Below are positions 52,544 to 61,059 of a stretch of DNA of 64,000 bases, piece after piece (position 1 is the stretch's first letter; each line of letters begins with the position of its first letter). The stretch spans positions 62,001-126,000 of the forward strand of contig NZ_JAGETZ010000007.1 of NCBI RefSeq assembly GCF_017571495.1. The letters are read 5' to 3'. The position numbers and the translations under genes were made by a program. Below the pieces are notes generated by a model. It worked only from the letters and a program-made list of their open reading frames with translations, did not search any database and had not been told where the DNA came from. This stretch comes from Hymenobacter negativus. Lineage in GTDB: Bacteria > Bacteroidota > Bacteroidia > Cytophagales > Hymenobacteraceae.

Positions 52544-52561
52544 CATTTAACCTTGCCTTGT

Positions 52562-53497
52562 ATGCTTTCCCAGTCCCAGTGGGCTCCCTTCATCAAGCGT
52601 CGCGCAGCGGAACTGGGCTTTATGGCCTGCGGCATTTCGAAAGCGGAATTCCTGGAGGAAGAAGCCCCGCGCCTCGAAACCTGGCTCACGCGCCGCATGA
52701 ATGGCAAGATGGGCTACATGGAAAACCACTTCGACAAGCGCCTCGACCCGCGCTTGCTGGTGGACGGCGCTAAATCGGTGATTTCGCTGCTGCTCAACTA
52801 CTACCCCGCCCCCGAAACCCAACAGCCCGACGATACCCTGAAAATCAGCAAGTACGCCTACGGCCGCGACTACCACTTCGTTATCAAAGACAAGTTGAAG
52901 ACACTGCTGGCCGACATGGAAGCCGAGATAGGGGCCATCGGCGGGCGTTGCTTCGTAGATTCTGCACCGGTGCTGGACAAGGCCTGGGCAAAGAAGTCCG
53001 GCCTTGGCTGGGTGGGCAAAAACTCGAACCTGATAACGCCCGGCACCGGCTCGTTCTACTTCATTGCCGAGCTGATTGTGGACGTGGAGCTTCCCGCCGA
53101 TGGGCCCATCCGGGACTACTGCGGTACCTGCACCAAGTGCGTAGATGCCTGCCCCACGCAGGCCATTACGGAACCCTACGTAGTAGACGGCAGCAAATGC
53201 ATCAGCTACTTTACCATCGAGCTGAAGGACCAGATTCCGATGGAAGTAGCTGGGCAGTTCGGCAACTGGATGTTTGGCTGCGACATCTGCCAAGACGTGT
53301 GCCCCTGGAACCGCTTCTCCAAGCCGCACAATGAGCCGCAGTTCAACCCTGCGCCCGGCCTGAAAGACCTGACGCCCGGCGACTGGCGCGAAATCACCCA
53401 CGAATTATTTACGGAGCTGTTCCGGCAGTCGGCGGTGAAGCGCACTGGCTACGAAGGCCTGAAACGCAACATCCGGTTTGTGACAGAAGGCAAATGA
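52562..53497 (+). CDS. queG: epoxyqueuosine reductase
   Basis: 311 aa from the ATG at 52562. QueG reduces epoxyqueuosine in tRNA to queuosine with a cobalamin and two [4Fe-4S] clusters. The first cluster motif is [16 protein letters not shown] and the second is [11 protein letters not shown], joined by [13 protein letters not shown]. The N-terminal [19 protein letters not shown] and [13 protein letters not shown] segments are typical. Normal length. It lies 18 bp behind the DUF1905 gene. Confidence 0.97.
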
Positions 53498-53954: not shown

Positions 53955-54812
53955 CTAGACGAACAAATCCATAGCCGCTTGCGCCGTAGCAGTATTGGCC
54001 GCCTCATCAAAAGACTCGGCCAGCGCTGGGTCGTGAATGGCAGCGCCTTTGCTAATGGTGAGGAAGGTGCTGAAGGGAATGGAAACGCCTGCCGACTGAT
54101 ATTGGATGGTGGTTTCTTCGCCACCGGTAGCGGCAGTAGTCAGCACCTGCGCGGCCGCCGGACGAGTAATGACAGCATCTTCTTCACTGGGCCAGTTCTG
54201 CACCACTGCACCCCGGCTCCGGCGCAGGCTGCGCACATGGGACGCATGCTGCGACTCAACGGGCAGTATGCGCAGGACGCTACGGGTCAGCACTGCATCG
54301 TACACCAGATTAAATGCGTGCGCGGTGTAGAGCCGCACGCCCAGGTCTTCGATTTGCTGCGCCAGGGCCAGAAAATCATCGAAGCTGGTGAACACGTTCG
54401 GGAACAGGACCGGGTTGGAAGACTGCCCGTGACGGCCACTGAAATCAAACGTGGGTACGGTGGGCACAATGGCTCCGGCATTTTGCAAGGCCTGCTGCAA
54501 TAGCGCGGCATGCTGCGTCTGGTGGGCCAGCATGCGCTCAAAATCCGGGCGTTGAGCTGTCGTAATCAAGCCGGCTGCGGCCAAGGCCTGCGTATAGAGT
54601 GCTACCTGCAGCCGCTCCAACTGCAGCAGTTGGAGCGCGGCATCAAACGAGCTGTCGAGGGTGCCGGCGGTGGTAGCCTGCGCGGTGCCCAGGCCCAGCG
54701 GAAGGGCTGCCGCGGCTGCACGTCCCAGCTTGGTCAGCAAAGCCCGGCGGGGAGTAGGCTCGGGAGCCGTCGGGGTGGCCGCTAAATGGTCGAGAACGGA
54801 AATCAGCTTCAT
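53955..54812 (-). CDS. ferritin-like exported protein, pair 3 partner (B-type, partly degenerate)
   Basis: 285 aa. A Tat-type N-terminus is suggested by TPRRALLTKLGRAAAAALPL, with an A-x-A site near QATTAG. The Ferritin_2-like four-helix part follows. Ligand positions compared with pairs 1 and 2: first helix keeps one Glu (QLLQLERLQVALY) but the second is Gln; the H-E-x-x-H block reads HQTQH, replacing Glu by Gln; the late LPVESQH keeps Glu and His. So two of the diiron ligands are lost. The ATG overlaps the end of the 54809 gene (ATGA), indicating tight coupling. Confidence 0.8.
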   Translation of the reverse strand: MKLISVLDHLAATPTAPEPTPRRALLTKLGRAAAAALPLGLGTAQATTAGTLDSSFDAALQLLQLERLQVALYTQALAAAGLITTAQRPDFERMLAHQTQHAALLQQALQNAGAIVPTVPTFDFSGRHGQSSNPVLFPNVFTSFDDFLALAQQIEDLGVRLYTAHAFNLVYDAVLTRSVLRILPVESQHASHVRSLRRSRGAVVQNWPSEEDAVITRPAAAQVLTTAATGGEETTIQYQSAGVSIPFSTFLTISKGAAIHDPALAESFDEAANTATAQAAMDLFV

Positions 54813-55531
54813 ACGGGAACGGCCAGGTTGGCCACGGAAATAACGTAGGGGGCGAAGTAGGGCGCCAGGGCAGTATTGACCTCCATCGGGGTTTTGGTGA
54901 TGAGCAGCCCGGTGCTATCCACCACGTTGCTGCTGGCAAAGGAGCCGGGTGTGAGCAAATCACGAATGGCAGCGGCCTGGCGCGACACGACCGACCCGGC
55001 TTTCAGCATCATCAACCGCTGCGATGTACCGCTAGCAGTGAACAGCGTCAGCAACACAGGGAAAGCAGCGGCGGCCAAATCGGCTATCTGCTGGGCGGCA
55101 GCCAGCACCCCAGCCCGGCTGGTGAGCGTGAAGGAGGTGAGGTTGAAGACGAAATCAGTGGGAAAGAGCACCGCCGTGCCAGCGGGGTCGATAAAGTAGC
55201 GGAATAGCTCGCGGTGCACGATGGCGTGGTCGCGCAGGTCGGCAAATACGGAGCGGTCGGTCGCGGTAAAGTCGGAAGGCGGTACATCCACTGCTTTCTG
55301 ATAAAGCGTGGTTTGGGCCAGGCTAAGCAGGTAAGCGTAATAGAGCAGCCCGGAATCGCCGCTGGGCAGGGTAAGTAGGTTGGGGTCGGACGTAACGGGC
55401 TCGGGAGTCGAGTCGCTACAGCCCGCTGCAATCAGAGCCACCGAAGCAGCCGAGGCGGCCGAAACCCGTAAAAAAACGCGCCGCCCCAGCGACTGTTCCC
55501 GCCAGGCGGGGAAAAAAGTGTAGTCAGACAT
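54809..55531 (-). CDS. ferritin-like Tat lipoprotein, pair 3 (A-type, ligands lost)
   Basis: 240 aa from the ATG at 55531. Signal region with twin Arg (LGRRVFLRVSAASAASVALI) ending in a lipobox Cys (AAGC). By alignment with the A-type genes at 56654 and 58547 the fold is kept (YAYLLSLAQTTLYQKAV; DHAIVHRELF; VVSRQAAAIRDLLTPGSFA), but the Glu residues are replaced: ALEQLEA by LLSLAQT, HEAIH by HAIVH, and VEARH by VVSRQ. Most or all metal ligands are gone, so it may be a structural partner rather than an iron-binding enzyme. Confidence 0.82.
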   Translation of the reverse strand: MSDYTFFPAWREQSLGRRVFLRVSAASAASVALIAAGCSDSTPEPVTSDPNLLTLPSGDSGLLYYAYLLSLAQTTLYQKAVDVPPSDFTATDRSVFADLRDHAIVHRELFRYFIDPAGTAVLFPTDFVFNLTSFTLTSRAGVLAAAQQIADLAAAAFPVLLTLFTASGTSQRLMMLKAGSVVSRQAAAIRDLLTPGSFASSNVVDSTGLLITKTPMEVNTALAPYFAPYVISVANLAVPV

Positions 55532-55631
55532 CTGGTAAGTATTCAGGCTGACCTGCTCACCCAATGAGCCAGGCTCCAGCCATTACAAAGGTACTCGCTA
55601 CCCTTCCATTGGTTGCAAAGGCCTTGAGAAA

Positions 55632-55665
55632 CAAAGCCGGCCCCGCGCGTGCAGAACCGGCTTTG
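55632..55665 (-). terminator. hairpin between pair 2 and pair 3
   Basis: CAAAGCCGG and CCGGCTTTG pair across a 16-nt loop, in the gap after the 55700 gene and upstream of the pair 3 start; no long T run. Confidence 0.5.
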
Positions 55666-55699
55666 GCTAAAAGAAGTGCCCTGAATGGACGCGGAACGC

Positions 55700-56620
55700 C
55701 TACGCGAGGAGCCGGCCGGCGCGTGAAGCATCCAGTACTTCTGCCGGCTGTAAGGCCTCATCAAAGGCAGCAGCGGCATCATCGGCTGAGTACTTTGGCG
55801 GTGTATCGCCAAAAGCCGTCGTGATAGGCAGCGCCGCCTTTGTCCCGATAGCGCCTTGGTTGATATTACTTTCTGCCATGCTGGGCTTAGTGCGTTCATA
55901 AGCGGGAATGCCGTAGGTAGTACCGCCCAGTGTGACCACCGTAGAGGTAGTCGAGGTGTTGGGTACGCCACCGGTATAGGTAGTGTCGGTGGCTACATCA
56001 TCGGCCGCGTTGGGCCAGGGCAGTTGGTTGCGCATGCTGCGGATGTGGGCTGCGTGCCGCGCCTCGACCGAGTGAATCTGGAGGGCCACGGTAAGCAGGT
56101 CATTAGGAGCCCCTAATAGCTCGGCTGCACGGCCTTTATAGGCGCGCACGCCTGTGTCTTCAAGCAACTGGGCCAGTTTCAGTTGGTCGGCGTAGCTGGC
56201 GGGCAGCAGGCTGGCATTGAAGCGGATACCTGTGGTGGCAGTGCCCGCAACGGGCGTGCCGCTCAGGGCACGAATGGCAGCGGTCAGGGCCGTGACGTGG
56301 GCGTCTTCGTGGGATTTGATAAGGCGAATAGCCGTATCGTCGGCCCCGCTCGGAATCTGGCGGGCGGCAATGAACTGCCGGTAGAAGTCGGCCTCCAGCA
56401 ATTCCAAAGTCAGGGCGTAATTCAGTACATCAATTGGAGTAGATGTGGTGCCGGCATAAGCTTTCTGGAACAGGGCCCCTAGGAACAGTGGCGAAGTAGC
56501 CAGTGCAGCCCGCTTGGCCACGGAGCCGAGGGAATTGAATACGGCGCGGCGCGAATCGAAGCGGCCCAGTACGTCGGAATCCACTTCGGCGAGGTGCTCG
56601 ATGATATTAAACAGGTTCAT
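55700..56620 (-). CDS. ferritin-like exported protein, pair 2 partner (B-type)
   Basis: 306 aa. After 22 residues a twin-Arg signal occurs: FDSRRAVFNSLGSVAKRAAL, ending with an A-Y-A site. The four-helix ferritin-like domain has ligands Glu73 and Glu76 (TLELLEADFYRQF), Glu105 and His108 (SHEDAHVTAL), and a later SVEARHAAHIRSM. Family: Ferritin_2 (desiccation-related/PCC13-62-like). It is 33 bp behind the A-type gene at 56654 and forms pair 2. Function: exported iron or redox role is inferred only. Confidence 0.88.
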   Translation of the reverse strand: MNLFNIIEHLAEVDSDVLGRFDSRRAVFNSLGSVAKRAALATSPLFLGALFQKAYAGTTSTPIDVLNYALTLELLEADFYRQFIAARQIPSGADDTAIRLIKSHEDAHVTALTAAIRALSGTPVAGTATTGIRFNASLLPASYADQLKLAQLLEDTGVRAYKGRAAELLGAPNDLLTVALQIHSVEARHAAHIRSMRNQLPWPNAADDVATDTTYTGGVPNTSTTSTVVTLGGTTYGIPAYERTKPSMAESNINQGAIGTKAALPITTAFGDTPPKYSADDAAAAFDEALQPAEVLDASRAGRLLA

Positions 56621-56653
56621 AACGAATGACGGGGCGAAAGAATAGACAGGAAC

Positions 56654-57388
56654 TTACTGGCCGATGGTGCTCACATCGAGCTGCACCACGGTGGCATCCA
56701 GGTAAGTATTCACGATTTTGATGACATCAGCGGGTGCCATCTGCTTGTCTAAGCCGGTAGTGGCATCTACCTGGTCGATTGCGGCGAAGGAGCCGGACGT
56801 GAGCAGGTCGCGGACGTAGGCCGCATGACGAGCTTCCACCGACACAATCTGCCCGGCAATGCTCACGTAAGCCGGCACTTTGAACAGCTTGCCCGCGCCG
56901 TTGTAGGCGGCTACGCCCAAGTCTTCAAACGTCTTGGCGGCCGTTAACAGCCGGGTGCGGTCCGTGAAAGTGGCGTCGTCGAATTTGAACGTGAGTGTTT
57001 GCAGCAACTGCCCCGGGAAGTCCCGGTTGATGGCTGCCTGCAGGAAGTCGCGGTGAATGGCTTCGTGTGTTGCCACGTTGGTAAGAACGGCCTTCTCAGC
57101 CGTCGATAGCACCGTAGTGGTTGCCGCCACTGCTTTGGCATAAAAGGCCGCTTCCAACTGCTCTAGGGCGTAGGCATAGTTGAGCACGCTGGCATCGCCA
57201 AAGCCCAGGCTCACGTTGATACTGGGGGCGGTGGTTTCCGATTCTTTGGAACAGCCGGCCAGTGCCAGCGCCGTAACACCAGCTGTAGCGCCGGCATACA
57301 TAAAGAAGGAGCGCCGCTTGATGGGAGTGTGCAGCGACTGCGCGGGCCGCGGGCTTTCGGAGTCAGTCGGCCGAAGGGTATCGGGCAT
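56654..57388 (-). CDS. ferritin-like Tat lipoprotein, pair 2 (A-type)
   Basis: 244 aa from the ATG at 57388. Signal region TPIKRRSFFMYAGATAGVTA with twin Arg at 25-26, lipobox Cys46 (LALAGCSK). Diiron-type ligands: Glu76 and Glu79 in YALEQLEAAFYAKA, Glu109 and His112 in THEAIHRDFL, the helix AFEDLGVAAYNGA, and VSVEARHAAYV near residue 195. All positions match the A-type gene at 58547. It is a lipid-anchored periplasmic protein loaded before Tat export, by inference. It heads pair 2. Confidence 0.9.
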   Translation of the reverse strand: MPDTLRPTDSESPRPAQSLHTPIKRRSFFMYAGATAGVTALALAGCSKESETTAPSINVSLGFGDASVLNYAYALEQLEAAFYAKAVAATTTVLSTAEKAVLTNVATHEAIHRDFLQAAINRDFPGQLLQTLTFKFDDATFTDRTRLLTAAKTFEDLGVAAYNGAGKLFKVPAYVSIAGQIVSVEARHAAYVRDLLTSGSFAAIDQVDATTGLDKQMAPADVIKIVNTYLDATVVQLDVSTIGQ

Positions 57389-57566
57389 GAGCGAAGAATA
57401 TTTAATGAGCAAATAGACGAATGGAGGCCAAAGCAGATAGTCTGAGCTAGGTGGCTCCGCCGCCCACAGACCTGCAAAGCCGGATTCCCAAACGGAATTC
57501 CGAAGGAAGATGCCGATACAAAGCTAACCCGTTGCAGGCGTCGGTACGGAAACTGCAAATTATCCA

Positions 57567-57631
57567 GGCCCTATAACGACGCAAAGCCGGTTCCGCGTAC
57601 TGCGGAACCGGCTTTGCGTCGTTATAGGGCC
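57567..57631. terminator. perfect 30-bp inverted repeat, terminator of pair 1
   Basis: Arms 57567-57596 and 57602-57631 are exact inverses with a 5-nt loop (start GGCCCTATAACGACGCAAAG). It ends 18 bp after the stop of the 57649 gene and has no long T run; it is an unusually long hairpin. Confidence 0.8.
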
Positions 57632-57648
57632 GAAAAGGCCATAACCAT

Positions 57649-58515
57649 CTAAGCTCCTACCAGGCCACCTGCGCGCGAGGCATCGAGGACTTCAGCAGCT
57701 TGCAAGTACTCATCAAACGAGGCTGCAGCATCAGCAGCGGTATACGTAGCGCCCAAGCCGGTGGTGATGGGCACGTTCGACTGGGTCGTATTGCTCTCAA
57801 CCGGGCTGGCGGCGGTGTACGCCGGAATGCCGTAGCCGAAAGGCGAAGTAGTCGAAGTCGGGCCCGTTACCCCGCTGGTGTATACCGGGTGAGCAGCCAG
57901 GTCATCGCCCGGATTAACCCAAGGCTTTTGACCGCGCATGTAGCGGATTTTCGAGGCGTGGCGGGCTTCCACGGAGTGGATTTGCAAGGCTACAGTCAGG
58001 AGGTCGGTACCGAGCAGTTCGCCGGCGCGGCCTTTGTAAGCGCGGACGCCGGTGTCTTCCAGCAACTGGGCAATGCCGAGCTGGGCCGCAAAAGTGGTGA
58101 GGCCGGCGAAAACGGCTGATTTAAACGGCGCGCTGGCCACTGGCGTACCACCCAGACCCGTGATGGCCGTACGCAGCAGCGCAACGTGTGCGTCTTCGTG
58201 GCCTTTGATTTGGTCGATAGCGGCTTTGTCGGCGGCCGAAGCACCTGCATATTGCGATGAAGCCTTCACTTTAGCATAAAAGTCCTGCTCGAACAGCTCT
58301 AGGGTCAGCGCGTACTGCAATACCTCCACTGGGGTAGAGGTAGTGCCAGCATAGGCTTTTTGGAACAAAGCACCCAGAAACAAAGGCGTAGCAGCCAAAG
58401 CAGAGCGTTTGGCGATGTTGCCCAACGAACCAAAAACGGCACGGCGCGAGTCGAAGCGGCCCAGAACGTCGGCGTCTACTTTAGAAAGGTCGTCGATTAT
58501 TTTGAAAAAATCCAT
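57649..58515 (-). CDS. ferritin-like exported protein, pair 1 partner (B-type)
   Basis: 288 aa. N-terminal segment DFFKIIDDLSKVDADVLGRF, then a twin-Arg signal DSRRAVFGSLGNIAKRSALA and an A-Y-A site. Ligands: Glu73 and Glu76 in TLELFEQDFYAKV, Glu107 and His110 in GHEDAHVALL, and SVEARHASKIRYM later, plus QLLEDTGVRAYKG. Very close to the pair 2 B-type protein. It is 31 bp behind the A-type gene at 58547. Confidence 0.9.
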   Translation of the reverse strand: MDFFKIIDDLSKVDADVLGRFDSRRAVFGSLGNIAKRSALAATPLFLGALFQKAYAGTTSTPVEVLQYALTLELFEQDFYAKVKASSQYAGASAADKAAIDQIKGHEDAHVALLRTAITGLGGTPVASAPFKSAVFAGLTTFAAQLGIAQLLEDTGVRAYKGRAGELLGTDLLTVALQIHSVEARHASKIRYMRGQKPWVNPGDDLAAHPVYTSGVTGPTSTTSPFGYGIPAYTAASPVESNTTQSNVPITTGLGATYTAADAAASFDEYLQAAEVLDASRAGGLVGA

Positions 58516-58546
58516 GACAAAGGTTGATTACAAGTGAAGGAAGGGA

Positions 58547-59293
58547 TTATTTGCCAACAGTGCTAGCATCAAGCTTCTCTGTGACAAACGACTGAGCGAT
58601 GGCAATTACATCCATCGGCGACATAGCCTTATCGAGACCACTGGCATCTACCTGGTCAGAAGAAGAGAAGGTGTTCGGAGTAATCAGTTCGCGAACATAT
58701 GCGGCATGCCGGGCTTCAACCGATACGATTTGGCCGGCAATAACCAAGTAGGCAGCTGTTTTAATCAGCTTGCCCGCACCGTTGTAAGCCGCCACACCAA
58801 GGTCCTCAAAAGCTTTGGCCGCATCCAGAATACCGAGTTTGGTATCCGTACCCGACTTCAGGCGCTTCGTGAAATCGATGTTCGAAAAATTGGGGGTCAG
58901 GTTCTGCAGAATCTTACCGGGAGCGTCGCGGTTGATAGCTGCCTTGAAGAAGTCGCGGTGAATGGCTTCGTGCGCAGCAACTTCAGAAAAATAAGCCGTT
59001 TCGGCCGCCGACAGACCCGTGTTGGTCGATGCCTTCACTTGCGCATAGAACGCAGCTTCCAGCTGTTCCAGAGCGTATGCGTAGTTAAGGACCCCAACAT
59101 CGCCGGAGCCTAAGCTGATGCCATTGTTAACAGGCGTGGAATCGCTGTCTTTCGAGCAGCCCGCCAGCACCAGAGCCGTAGCTCCAGCCGTGGCACCGGC
59201 GTACATGAAGAAAGAACGGCGCTTGATGGGCGTGTACAGCGGCTGGGCGAACGAAGCTTCGTCGGCGCTGCGGGGCTGAAGATTATCAGACAT
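58547..59293 (-). CDS. ferritin-like Tat lipoprotein, pair 1 (A-type)
   Basis: 248 aa. Twin-Arg signal TPIKRRSFFMYAGATAGATA followed by lipobox Cys46 (LVLAGCSKDS). Ligands Glu76 and Glu79 (YALEQLEAAFYAQV), Glu109 and His112 (AHEAIHRDFF), AFEDLGVAAYNGA, and VSVEARHAAYVREL. It is the first gene of the whole array. The upstream region (59294-59565) is shared with the divergent batD gene; no clear TAnnTTTG box is seen for it (TGCCTTTG at 59332-59339 is the best match). Confidence 0.9.
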   Translation of the reverse strand: MSDNLQPRSADEASFAQPLYTPIKRRSFFMYAGATAGATALVLAGCSKDSDSTPVNNGISLGSGDVGVLNYAYALEQLEAAFYAQVKASTNTGLSAAETAYFSEVAAHEAIHRDFFKAAINRDAPGKILQNLTPNFSNIDFTKRLKSGTDTKLGILDAAKAFEDLGVAAYNGAGKLIKTAAYLVIAGQIVSVEARHAAYVRELITPNTFSSSDQVDASGLDKAMSPMDVIAIAQSFVTEKLDASTVGK

Positions 59294-59533
59294 GAGCGAG
59301 AAATGGTTTGGTGAGAGATTACTAGGAAGGCAAAGGCAATAGGAGACCAGCCGGAGCCGGAGGTCCGCTTTTTTATAAGAAAACCCAGCTTGATTGGGTG
59401 ATTTATGGGCAGATACGGCTACAGTGGCGCTAAAGGATTTAATAGGCGCTCATTTTTTTGTTTATCAACTGTCTTTCAACCGTAGCCGCCGGAGGCTAAG
59501 GCTTGTTGGAAAGCCGATTCCAGCGTTTAACGC

Positions 59534-59541
59534 TACTTTTA
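59534..59541 (+). promoter_or_regulatory. -7-like box TACTTTTA of batD
   Basis: TACTTTTA (7/8) lies 24 nt before the ATG at 59566. Confidence 0.5.
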
Positions 59542-59565
59542 AGGTCTGCTATTAAGCCAGTGACT

Positions 59566-61059
59566 ATGGGACGACTTTTTGGGGTGTTGGCGTTGCTGTG
59601 GGGGCTGGGTCAGCCCGGCACGCCCCCCGCCGTCCCGGCCGCGCCTACCCAGACGGCCGCAGCCGATGTGGCCCTGCTGCCTGGCCCGGCCACACTGCCC
59701 GTTACAGGAATATATACAGTGTCTTTCCGCCTGCGCGGAGGCCAGTTAGGCAAATACTCCGATTTTCCGGAGCTGGAAGGCTTTAAGAAAAGCGGCAAAA
59801 CCAGTACCACCACCACACGAATCGTGCAGGGCCGCCGCTTCAGCGACCTCACCATTACGCAGCGCTACATGCCGTATGGAGAGGGTGAAATCGTTATCAA
59901 GCCGTTTCAGATGACTGTGAACGGTGTGGTACTGCGCAGCACGGAAGCCACCGTACGGGTGCAGGCGGCATTGCCCAATCCTACAGCCATGACTAAGCCA
60001 GTGCCTGGCAATACCCAGCTGCAAGCCGTGGGCGACTTGGATAAGATGTTTGGCAAACCCAAGCCGGTGCTGTACCAGGACGTGCCCGACCACGCCTTTC
60101 TGGCCGTGATGGCCGACCGGCCCCGCGTGTTTGCGGGGGAGGGCGTGCGGGTGGGCCTCTATTTTTACCTCAAGCCCGAAGACCAGGCGCTGCTGGCTTT
60201 TCACGATTTTAATAACCAGCTGCCGCCGCTGTTACACGAGTTGCACCAGCCCACCGCGTGGCAGGAACCCGGCCCCGAACCCAGCGTGACGCCCGATACC
60301 GTGCGCCACCTGGGCCAGCGCTACCTGCGTTTCCGACTGGCCGAAAACCTCTATTATCCGCTCACGTCTCAGCCCCTGCGCTTCCCGCCCTTGGCCCTGA
60401 CAATGGTGAAGTACAAGGTGCTGAAAAAGCCGGAGCCCGGCCAGGACAACCGCTTGGCAGGATACAAAACCTATTATTCGCCCGGCGTGAGCGTGCAGGT
60501 GCGGGCACTGCCGCAGGCGGCCCGGGGCGGAGCCGTAGCCGTGGGTAGTTACAAGGTGCTGGAGGCCGTCAGCCGCACGAAATTTCGGGTGGGCGAGTCA
60601 TTCACGTACACCTTTGGCCTGGAAGGAAAGGGGAATTTATCGGCCCTACTAGCCCCGGCACTTGCGCCGAGGCCGGGCGTGGATGTGTATGGGCCGGAGG
60701 TGCGCGAACAGCCCGCACCGGGTGGGGGGCGTAAGCTTTTTCGTTATCGACTGGTGGCCCGCCGCCCCGGCGTGCTGCCCCTCGATAGCCTGCTGCAAGT
60801 GGTGATTTTCAACCCCGCTACCACCCGCTACGATACCCTGCGACCCGATTTGCGACCCGAAATACGTGGCGTCGCCACCCCAGCCCCATTGTCTAAACCC
60901 GAGGATGACCCCTTCTACGGTCCGGCTCTGGCCGGTGCCGATACCACGATGCAGTCCTTGGATGTGTACCGCGACGTGCGCCGCTATGCCGATTGGCTGC
61001 TGCTGGGGCTGGTAGCCGTGGCGGGCTTCGGCTGGTGGCGGGCAGGGCGGCAGGCGTAG
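59566..61059 (+). CDS. BatD-like oxygen-tolerance protein
   Basis: 497 aa from the ATG at 59566. Signal peptide MGRLFGVLALLWGLGQPGTP, then a long periplasmic part with immunoglobulin-like strands (YTVSFRLRGGQLGKYSDFPE, RFSDLTITQRYMPYGEGEIV, ASAVRPRVFAGEGVRVGLYF-like), and one membrane helix near the C-terminus (ADWLLLGLVAVAGFGWWRAG). This is the BatD layout of the MoxR-Bat systems; the usual BatA/B partners are absent here and moxR lies 45 kb away in the window. Confidence 0.8.
   Translation: MGRLFGVLALLWGLGQPGTPPAVPAAPTQTAAADVALLPGPATLPVTGIYTVSFRLRGGQLGKYSDFPELEGFKKSGKTSTTTTRIVQGRRFSDLTITQRYMPYGEGEIVIKPFQMTVNGVVLRSTEATVRVQAALPNPTAMTKPVPGNTQLQAVGDLDKMFGKPKPVLYQDVPDHAFLAVMADRPRVFAGEGVRVGLYFYLKPEDQALLAFHDFNNQLPPLLHELHQPTAWQEPGPEPSVTPDTVRHLGQRYLRFRLAENLYYPLTSQPLRFPPLALTMVKYKVLKKPEPGQDNRLAGYKTYYSPGVSVQVRALPQAARGGAVAVGSYKVLEAVSRTKFRVGESFTYTFGLEGKGNLSALLAPALAPRPGVDVYGPEVREQPAPGGGRKLFRYRLVARRPGVLPLDSLLQVVIFNPATTRYDTLRPDLRPEIRGVATPAPLSKPEDDPFYGPALAGADTTMQSLDVYRDVRRYADWLLLGLVAVAGFGWWRAGRQA

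Follow-up and report, generated by a model that had tools for sequence, protein, structure and literature searches.

The window analysed here is a 64,000-nucleotide stretch of the Hymenobacter negativus genome (contig NZ_JAGETZ010000007.1, positions 62,001 to 126,000), and the element in question is an array of three gene pairs at 53955-59293, each consisting of a short A gene followed by a longer B gene. All six open reading frames (ORFs) lie on the minus strand and none contains an internal stop. The partners are separated by 31 bp in pair 1 and 33 bp in pair 2 and overlap by 4 bp in pair 3, while the intervals between pairs measure 236 and 135 bp. The first-pass annotation, made from the sequence alone, had described six genes in three pairs on one strand with this spacing, and that description is confirmed. 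Each of the six proteins exceeds the curated Pfam cut-off of 24.7 bits for Ferritin_2 (PF13668), with scores of 34.6 to 121.9 bits. The genes, together with the predicted export elements of pair 1, are arranged as follows.

58547-59293, minus strand: A1, a lipoprotein of the twin-arginine translocation (Tat) type; Ferritin_2 114.3 bits, full metal-ligand set EEYHEHEDGEH, AlphaFold2 (AF2) model with a predicted local distance difference test score (pLDDT) of 84, Z 22.4 against RvY_06210.
59216-59221, minus strand: codons of the A1 twin arginines R25 and R26, from an alignment of 52 A proteins, positioned by hand.
59156-59158, minus strand: codon of the A1 lipobox Cys46, giving the mature N-terminus CSKDSD, positioned by hand.
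57649-58515, minus strand: B1, a Tat-type soluble partner; Ferritin_2 104.7 bits, full ligand set, AF2 pLDDT 77, Z 20.1 against RvY_06210.
58441-58446, minus strand: codons of the B1 twin arginines R24 and R25, from an alignment of 50 B proteins, positioned by hand.
56654-57412, minus strand: A2, similar to A1; Ferritin_2 121.9 bits, full ligand set; the ATG at 57388 is a likelier start than the upstream TTG.
55700-56620, minus strand: B2, similar to B1; Ferritin_2 100.5 bits, full ligand set.
54809-55564, minus strand: A3, a degenerate A; Ferritin_2 34.6 bits, twin arginines and lipobox kept, most metal ligands lost (SQYHAHADAVQ); the ATG at 55531 is a likelier start than the upstream TTG.
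53955-54812, minus strand: B3, a degenerate B overlapping A3; Ferritin_2 68.5 bits, EQYHQHEDGEH.

The A/B pair recurs as a unit in related genomes. The search for related loci used the best 80 of 595 matches and yields 79 loci, which therefore lean towards the near relatives of A1. Together with the window and a fourth pair in the same genome (C22, at G000:C22:385126-386390), these loci form 81 stretches carrying 132 A and 131 B ORFs. In 129 pairings drawn from these ORFs, B follows downstream of its A, the frameshifted pair of L120 being entered twice, and this A-then-B arrangement far exceeds chance. Three A and three B ORFs stay unpaired. The A genes lacking a B lie at a contig end (L118), at the end of the stretch examined (L137) and in L132, where the B of the last A is missing and short B pieces lie upstream.

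Within the genus, Ferritin_2 is found in 41 of 41 sampled genomes, the H. negativus genome included, and occurs in even number in 36 of them. The pairing counts in the two wider samples exclude this genus and take a strong match as one over 60 bits. In the phylum sample (matches in 41 of 296 genomes), all 68 strong matches, from 30 genomes, form same-strand neighbouring pairs; eight weak matches, in eight genomes, are each single. In the order sample (matches in 32 of 118 genomes), 78 of the 81 strong matches are paired across 22 genomes, not counting a fragment of a disrupted B in G103 (55.6 bits). The three unpaired ones (one in G055, two in G143) sit at contig ends, for G143:C114 apparently so. 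The first-pass annotation had named a lack of joint conservation elsewhere as one observation that would undo its proposal; this objection falls away, since the A/B order is kept in other Bacteroidota. Its remark that the two-subunit arrangement is unusual does not stand, the family being present throughout the sampled genus.

Outside Bacteroidota, A/B pairs are carried by plasmids of Mesorhizobium (L190) and Methylobacterium (L191). Their A proteins share about 41-50% identity with the window A1 and have no lipobox; by score each plasmid protein is assigned to its own type, and the tree groups them with the respective clades. Cross-phylum transfer is likely. IS21 genes lie near the pair in L190. 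In this tree, built from 73 rows taken from 19 of the 81 stretches plus the plasmid proteins, A and B each occupy one side of a branch, with support of 87 and 94 (values not starred). Two adjacent family genes of Granulicella, which serve as the root, cluster with neither A nor B. Pairing is not universal in PF13668, because family genes of Haladaptatus (placed with B, support 80) and Pseudanabaena (placed with A, support 95) are unpaired. No A-B fusion was noticed; the one candidate examined, a 507-residue open frame in G081, was rejected, as L070 has a TAA stop and 23 bases between A and B. The pair is thus a real, conserved two-gene arrangement inside a known family. No earlier description of it was found among the open-access papers listed in literature searches, an absence that is unproven, as subscription journals are mostly uncovered.

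The partners are inherited together. Across 77 pairs from 33 multi-pair loci, the patristic distances of A and B correlate at 0.873. When partners are shuffled within loci, the mean correlation drops to 0.069 and none of 1000 shuffles reaches 0.873. In each of the 33 loci, no permutation fits better than the true partnering. The pairs therefore duplicate as blocks, with their partners unswapped. This analysis and that of ligand changes cover 125 of the 129 pairings, four not being scorable.

The predicted fold of A1 and B1 points to a hydrolase-type relative. The AF2 models of A1 (bundle helices over pLDDT 90) and B1 match only chains of RvY_06210 in Foldseek at E up to 0.001, six of six for each model. 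In VIA-align, the A1 model superimposes on 8KCE with a Z of 22.4 (root mean square deviation, rmsd, 1.9 over 163 residues), and the B1 model on 8W9K_C with a Z of 20.1 (rmsd 2.0 over 161 residues). The second match of both is the mini-bacterioferritin 9QQ4, with a Z of 15.5 for A1 (rmsd 2.1, 135 residues) and 16.3 for B1 (rmsd 2.0, 135 residues). Profile searches of the PDB sequences reach RvY_06210 at E 3.3e-4 (A) and 3.2e-7 (B), and no other natural protein of known structure is matched by sequence within E 0.01. A designed maquette matched by the B profile (0.0022) is regarded as a chance match. Other ferritin families of Pfam give nothing over cut-off (searched to E 1), Rubrerythrin remaining below its 22.8 bits with A1 at 19.6 and A2 at 16.5.

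RvY_06210 is RvFeMP-1, a tardigrade protein with a Zn/Mg dinuclear site, reported in the available text of PMC11616004 as a metal-dependent phosphatase acting on nucleotides and sugar phosphates. The bacterial DRB0118 is likewise reported there as a phosphatase, active with a Gly at the position of Asp135, and its loss lowers desiccation survival according to the accessible parts of PMC11616004 and PMC1274311. On the evidence of sequence and model, A and B appear most to resemble these ferritin-like metabolite phosphatases (FeMP), both being PF13668 members; the likeness to RvFeMP-1 is a lead to function and no proof of it. The first-pass assignment to a ferritin-like family stands for all six proteins. 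The iron or ferritin role attached to it is less well supported, the nearest solved and assayed relative being a Zn/Mg-binding phosphatase.

The conserved ligands of pairs 1 and 2 follow the order E / ExxH / E / ExxH. When the A alignment is read onto RvFeMP-1 by hand, with a numbering shift of 3, E76 corresponds to Glu51, E109 to Glu90, H112 to His93, E163 to Glu132 and E193 to Asp162. The ligands of the M1 metal (Glu of helix 1, Glu and His of helix 2) are kept in A1, B1, A2 and B2, all four of which read EEYHEHEDGEH.

Set beside known systems, A and B share with RvFeMP-1 (PDB 8KCE/8WAI/8W9K) the PF13668 family, the best fold match and the ligands Glu51, Glu90, His93 and Glu132 together with a helix-4 carboxylate. 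In contrast to A and B, RvFeMP-1 bears an additional IgG-like domain, forms a homodimer encoded by one gene and has Asp135 at the position of their Gly; the text of PMC11616004, as far as it is available, mentions no Tat or lipid signal for it. DRB0118, compared by description only (PMC11616004, in part), resembles A and B as a bacterial protein free of the IgG-like domain, with the same Gly, and as a phosphatase linked to desiccation survival; unlike them, it is a single, mainly dimeric protein. PCC13-62 of Craterostigma plantagineum, also compared by description only, is a desiccation-induced PF13668 member with a secretory signal; it differs in being a plant protein, and no A/B pair is mentioned for it in the available part of the same paper. 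The AF2 models of A1 and B1 lack an IgG-like domain and lie nearest to RvFeMP-1, as expected of clade 2 of the FeMP or Tar-fer-related phosphatases.

Bacterial ferritins, bacterioferritins and Dps proteins such as 9QQ4 share the four-helix bundle with the A1 and B1 models, at Z values of about 14 to 16. These clearly lower matches end at the bundle and do not extend into the C-terminal part common to RvFeMP-1, A1 and B1. Such proteins are mostly cytoplasmic cages. A ferritin cage is not the first choice here, because the RvFeMP-1 match leads by both fold and sequence.

The three pairs of the array are not equivalent, which corrects the first-pass annotation. Pair 3 has shed metal ligands: where the four proteins of pairs 1 and 2 share one ligand string, A3 reads SQYHAHADAVQ and B3 EQYHQHEDGEH, the bridging Glu of helix 2 and the second Glu of helix 1 of B3 both being replaced by Gln. 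The diiron-type label therefore cannot apply to the whole set of six, and pair 3 is filed solely as a degenerate PF13668 pair, since A3 and B3 are without the full M1 set. The fourth pair of the genome, on C22, has a full A site and a B that lacks the helix-3 Glu (EEYDEHVDGEH), a type common to several other loci.

Such losses recur elsewhere. A site is counted as lost when any of the helix-1 Glu, the helix-2 Glu or His, the helix-3 Glu or the helix-4 Glu is changed. Among the 129 pairings, the site is full in both partners in 93, lost in both in 17, lost in B only in 14 and in A only in one, with four not scorable. The window pair 3 falls into a Hymenobacter clade (support 100) that contains 30 pairs from as many loci, always the pair that comes last in its stretch; of these, 17 have lost both sites, four the B site only and one the A site only, and eight are intact. 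Outside this clade, all ten B-only losses replace the helix-3 Glu by Val or Ser, as in the C22 pair. Mapped on the tree, site loss amounts to six changes in A and seven in B, recurrent and few. Correlated loss as proof of A-B interaction was considered and set aside, because the tree events are few and the independent-pairs test is unable to reach significance.

Degenerate pairs appear to remain under selection. The median ratio of non-synonymous to synonymous substitution rates (dN/dS) is 0.437 (A) and 0.385 (B) in lost pairs and 0.251 and 0.322 in intact pairs of the same loci, values that are rough because synonymous sites are near saturation (comparisons kept at a proportion of synonymous differences, pS, under 0.65: 108, 100, 161 and 130). 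For the window pair 3 against L111, it is about 0.27 for both genes. The genes of lost pairs thus remain constrained, more loosely. Some last pairs are decaying, as in Hymenobacter lapidarius (L120), where the last pair is frameshifted.

Both partners carry twin arginines. In the window these lie in KRRSFFMYAG-type (A1, A2) and GRRVFLRV-type (A3) signals followed by the lipobox Cys, and in SRRAVF-type (B1, B2) and PRRALL-type (B3) signals followed by an A-x-A-like site. The structure-related alignments exclude the most diverged proteins and retain 52 A and 50 B rows. R25 and C46 of A are invariant, R26 reaches at least 90%, and R26, F28 and G33 are nearly invariant in an otherwise variable N-terminus; R24 and R25 of B are invariant. 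Twin arginines occur in both partners of 126 of the 129 pairings, and in nine of nine chosen proteins from Pseudomonadota, Acidobacteriota, Cyanobacteriota and Haloarchaea in the form (S/N)RRxx(L/F/I). The lipobox pattern is present in 127 of 129 A proteins, the remaining two being LNAC in L185 and a fragment in L120. B1 has a C-terminal FDE motif and, in residues 1-22, shared with its relatives, an unusually long and partly conserved n-region (MN.F.II..IEKVDPEV..RL) ahead of the twin arginines, which is unexpected for a discarded signal peptide.

The H. negativus genome holds one tatC. The Tat export proposed in the first-pass annotation is thus supported by the recurrence of the twin arginines in this and other phyla and by the presence of tatC, and left short by the Pfam TAT_signal model. 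NCBIfam Tat models give no match among the six window proteins at E up to 1, and NCBIfam as a whole offers nothing useful for them.

The location of the A lipoproteins may differ from the periplasmic membrane that had been proposed. In Capnocytophaga, the surface export signal has the optimum C-X-K-(D/E)2-X, and acidic motifs of Bacteroides and Flavobacterium function there too, as the accessible text of PMC5080379 reports. Among 127 A proteins, 24 fit C-x-K-(D/E)2 after the Cys, a further 42 carry three or more acidic residues, 27 have two and 34 have none or one, counts that lack a proper control set, two other lipoprotein-like N-termini being present in the window. A1 (CSKDSD) and A2 (CSKESE) have two such residues each, and A3 has one. 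Many A proteins, A1 and A2 weakly, thus bear residues like the Bacteroidota surface export signal; surface display of A is possible on this pattern.

Taken together, the array is best read, with a probability of roughly 0.55, as tandem modules of a Tat-exported, lipid-anchored and probably heteromeric dinuclear metallohydrolase, together with one retained, probably inactive pair. Each A and the B of its pair would fold together around a dinuclear metal site while still in the cytoplasm, and the resulting complex, probably a heterodimer joined through helix 4, would leave by Tat. The lipid of A may then anchor it at the outer membrane, perhaps at the cell surface, where it would hydrolyse phosphorylated metabolites, including damaged nucleotides, and so aid desiccated or irradiated cells. 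Pair 3, retained and probably inactive, may have a structural or regulatory role or be decaying. Members of PF13668, which occur in plants, tardigrades and bacteria, are linked with tolerance of desiccation, and little is known of what they do. With its strict pairing and its natural losses of the metal site, the bacterial branch described here offers a compact genetic system for the family's job, for how two subunits work together and for their place in the cell, and it calls the annotation 'ferritin-like' into question.

Several points weigh against this metallohydrolase reading. A and B resemble RvFeMP-1 only weakly in sequence (phmmer matches B1 at E 4e-4 and does not match A1; identity by fold is about 20%), and Gly166 of A aligns to Asp135, which is essential in RvFeMP-1. 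The activities of RvFeMP-1 and DRB0118 are low, and the physiological metal and substrate of RvFeMP-1 are unsettled, in the available account of PMC11616004; Deinococcus proteins including DRB0118 are classed as iron-storage ferritins, on unpublished grounds, in the accessible part of PMC1274311. Pfam TAT_signal stays below cut-off for A1 (12.8 against 22.7 bits) and gives no match at E up to 1 in the other five proteins. Twin arginines are absent from A in L147 and L153 and from B in L181, each partner keeping them; by the sequences, these three cases, which are few, would fit co-export of a complex. Linkage with tandem duplication alone could yield strict co-inheritance, which leaves contact between A and B unproven. 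No neighbour family points clearly to phosphate metabolism among the 25 of 94 families listed and in closer looks at the loci.

A stricter form of the metallohydrolase reading can be proposed tentatively. In it, A and B would form a heterodimer that is obligate and specific to the partner, and its two metal sites would be unequal: A would be the catalytic subunit, and B would have a supporting part and could lose its site more easily. Pre-assembled and exported whole by Tat, so that either twin arginine can serve both partners, it would act as a stress phosphatase displayed at the cell surface through the lipid of A, and in Hymenobacter a duplicated pair would repeatedly have become a pseudoenzyme pair with a non-catalytic role. 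The opposite arrangement, in which A and B each form a homodimer and share no more than transcription and inheritance, is rather unlikely. DRB0118 and RvFeMP-1 are homodimers in the available text of PMC11616004, Haladaptatus and Pseudanabaena have relatives without a partner gene, and linkage alone can produce the congruence of the A and B trees. Set against this, single strong matches in Bacteroidota outside the genus occur at contig ends alone, and the pair stays together on the alphaproteobacterial plasmids.

A redox or reactive-oxygen enzyme, such as an oxidase, a peroxidase or an Mn-catalase-like protein exported against oxidative stress, is improbable. Diiron and dimanganese chemistry is common in this superfamily, and some neighbouring genes (extracytoplasmic function (ECF) sigma factor, RskA anti-sigma factor and fasciclin genes, and the peroxiredoxin-like gene of Pseudanabaena) would suit such a role. 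The A1 model, however, matches the Mn-catalase KatB in Foldseek at E 0.1 and RvY_06210 at 6e-6, and the assayed relatives showed phosphatase activity, as reported in the available text of PMC11616004.

More improbable still is the first-pass view of an exported two-subunit ferritin or ferroxidase handling periplasmic iron. The ferritin fold and the carboxylate and His dinuclear ligand set of pairs 1 and 2 agree with it, as does the capacity of Tat to export cofactor-loaded proteins. Against it, the bacterioferritin, Dps and ferritin structures match clearly less well than RvFeMP-1, and the sole other related Pfam match is the sub-threshold Rubrerythrin of A1 and A2. RvFeMP-1 and DRB0118 are also reported as dimers, with an RvFeMP-1 dimer face unlike that of ferritins (PMC11616004, in its available part). 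Export by Sec with incidental twin arginines is the least probable of all, as the sub-threshold TAT_signal score and the two A and one B without twin arginines stand against arginines that are among the most conserved elements of variable N-termini and recur in four other phyla, Haloarchaea included.

The genes around the pair vary between loci. From 29 chosen loci outside Hymenobacter, 108 ORFs were collected, and 71 of them, from 19 of these loci, were scanned after near-copies had been dropped; no neighbour family occurs in more than four of the 71 ORFs, among the 25 of 94 families listed. Genes for an RskA anti-sigma factor and a fasciclin protein lie upstream on the same strand in L170 and L187; RskA is also near the pair in L163 and L178, the latter with an ECF sigma gene. 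These neighbourhoods resemble the mycobacterial SigK/RskA-fasciclin arrangement. A molybdenum oxidoreductase gene follows the pair in Dyadobacter (L154), with like genes in four more loci, and on the Hymenobacter plasmid NZ_CP110137.1 (L193) umuD and the gene of a Y-family polymerase are next to the pair. In Pseudanabaena, the peroxiredoxin-like gene is near the unpaired family gene. No single neighbour is decisive; they hint at a response to damage or to envelope stress. tatC lies near the pair in two of the 79 loci (L158 and L185), too few to weigh; a direct link to the Tat machinery is possible.

The array itself occupies a conserved genomic site, bounded in the window by two genes.

59503-61059, plus strand: gene with a BatD domain, divergent from the array; a similar gene is present at 43 of the 79 related loci.
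52553-53497, plus strand: gene with a QueG domain, at the opposite end of the site; a similar gene is present at 41 of the 79 related loci.

The site lies between aroC-batD and queG, aroC being present at 39 of the 79 loci. In Adhaeribacter, Rufibacter, Pontibacter and Sabulibacter, the same site holds a single pair, and the three pairs of the window therefore most likely arose by tandem growth from one.

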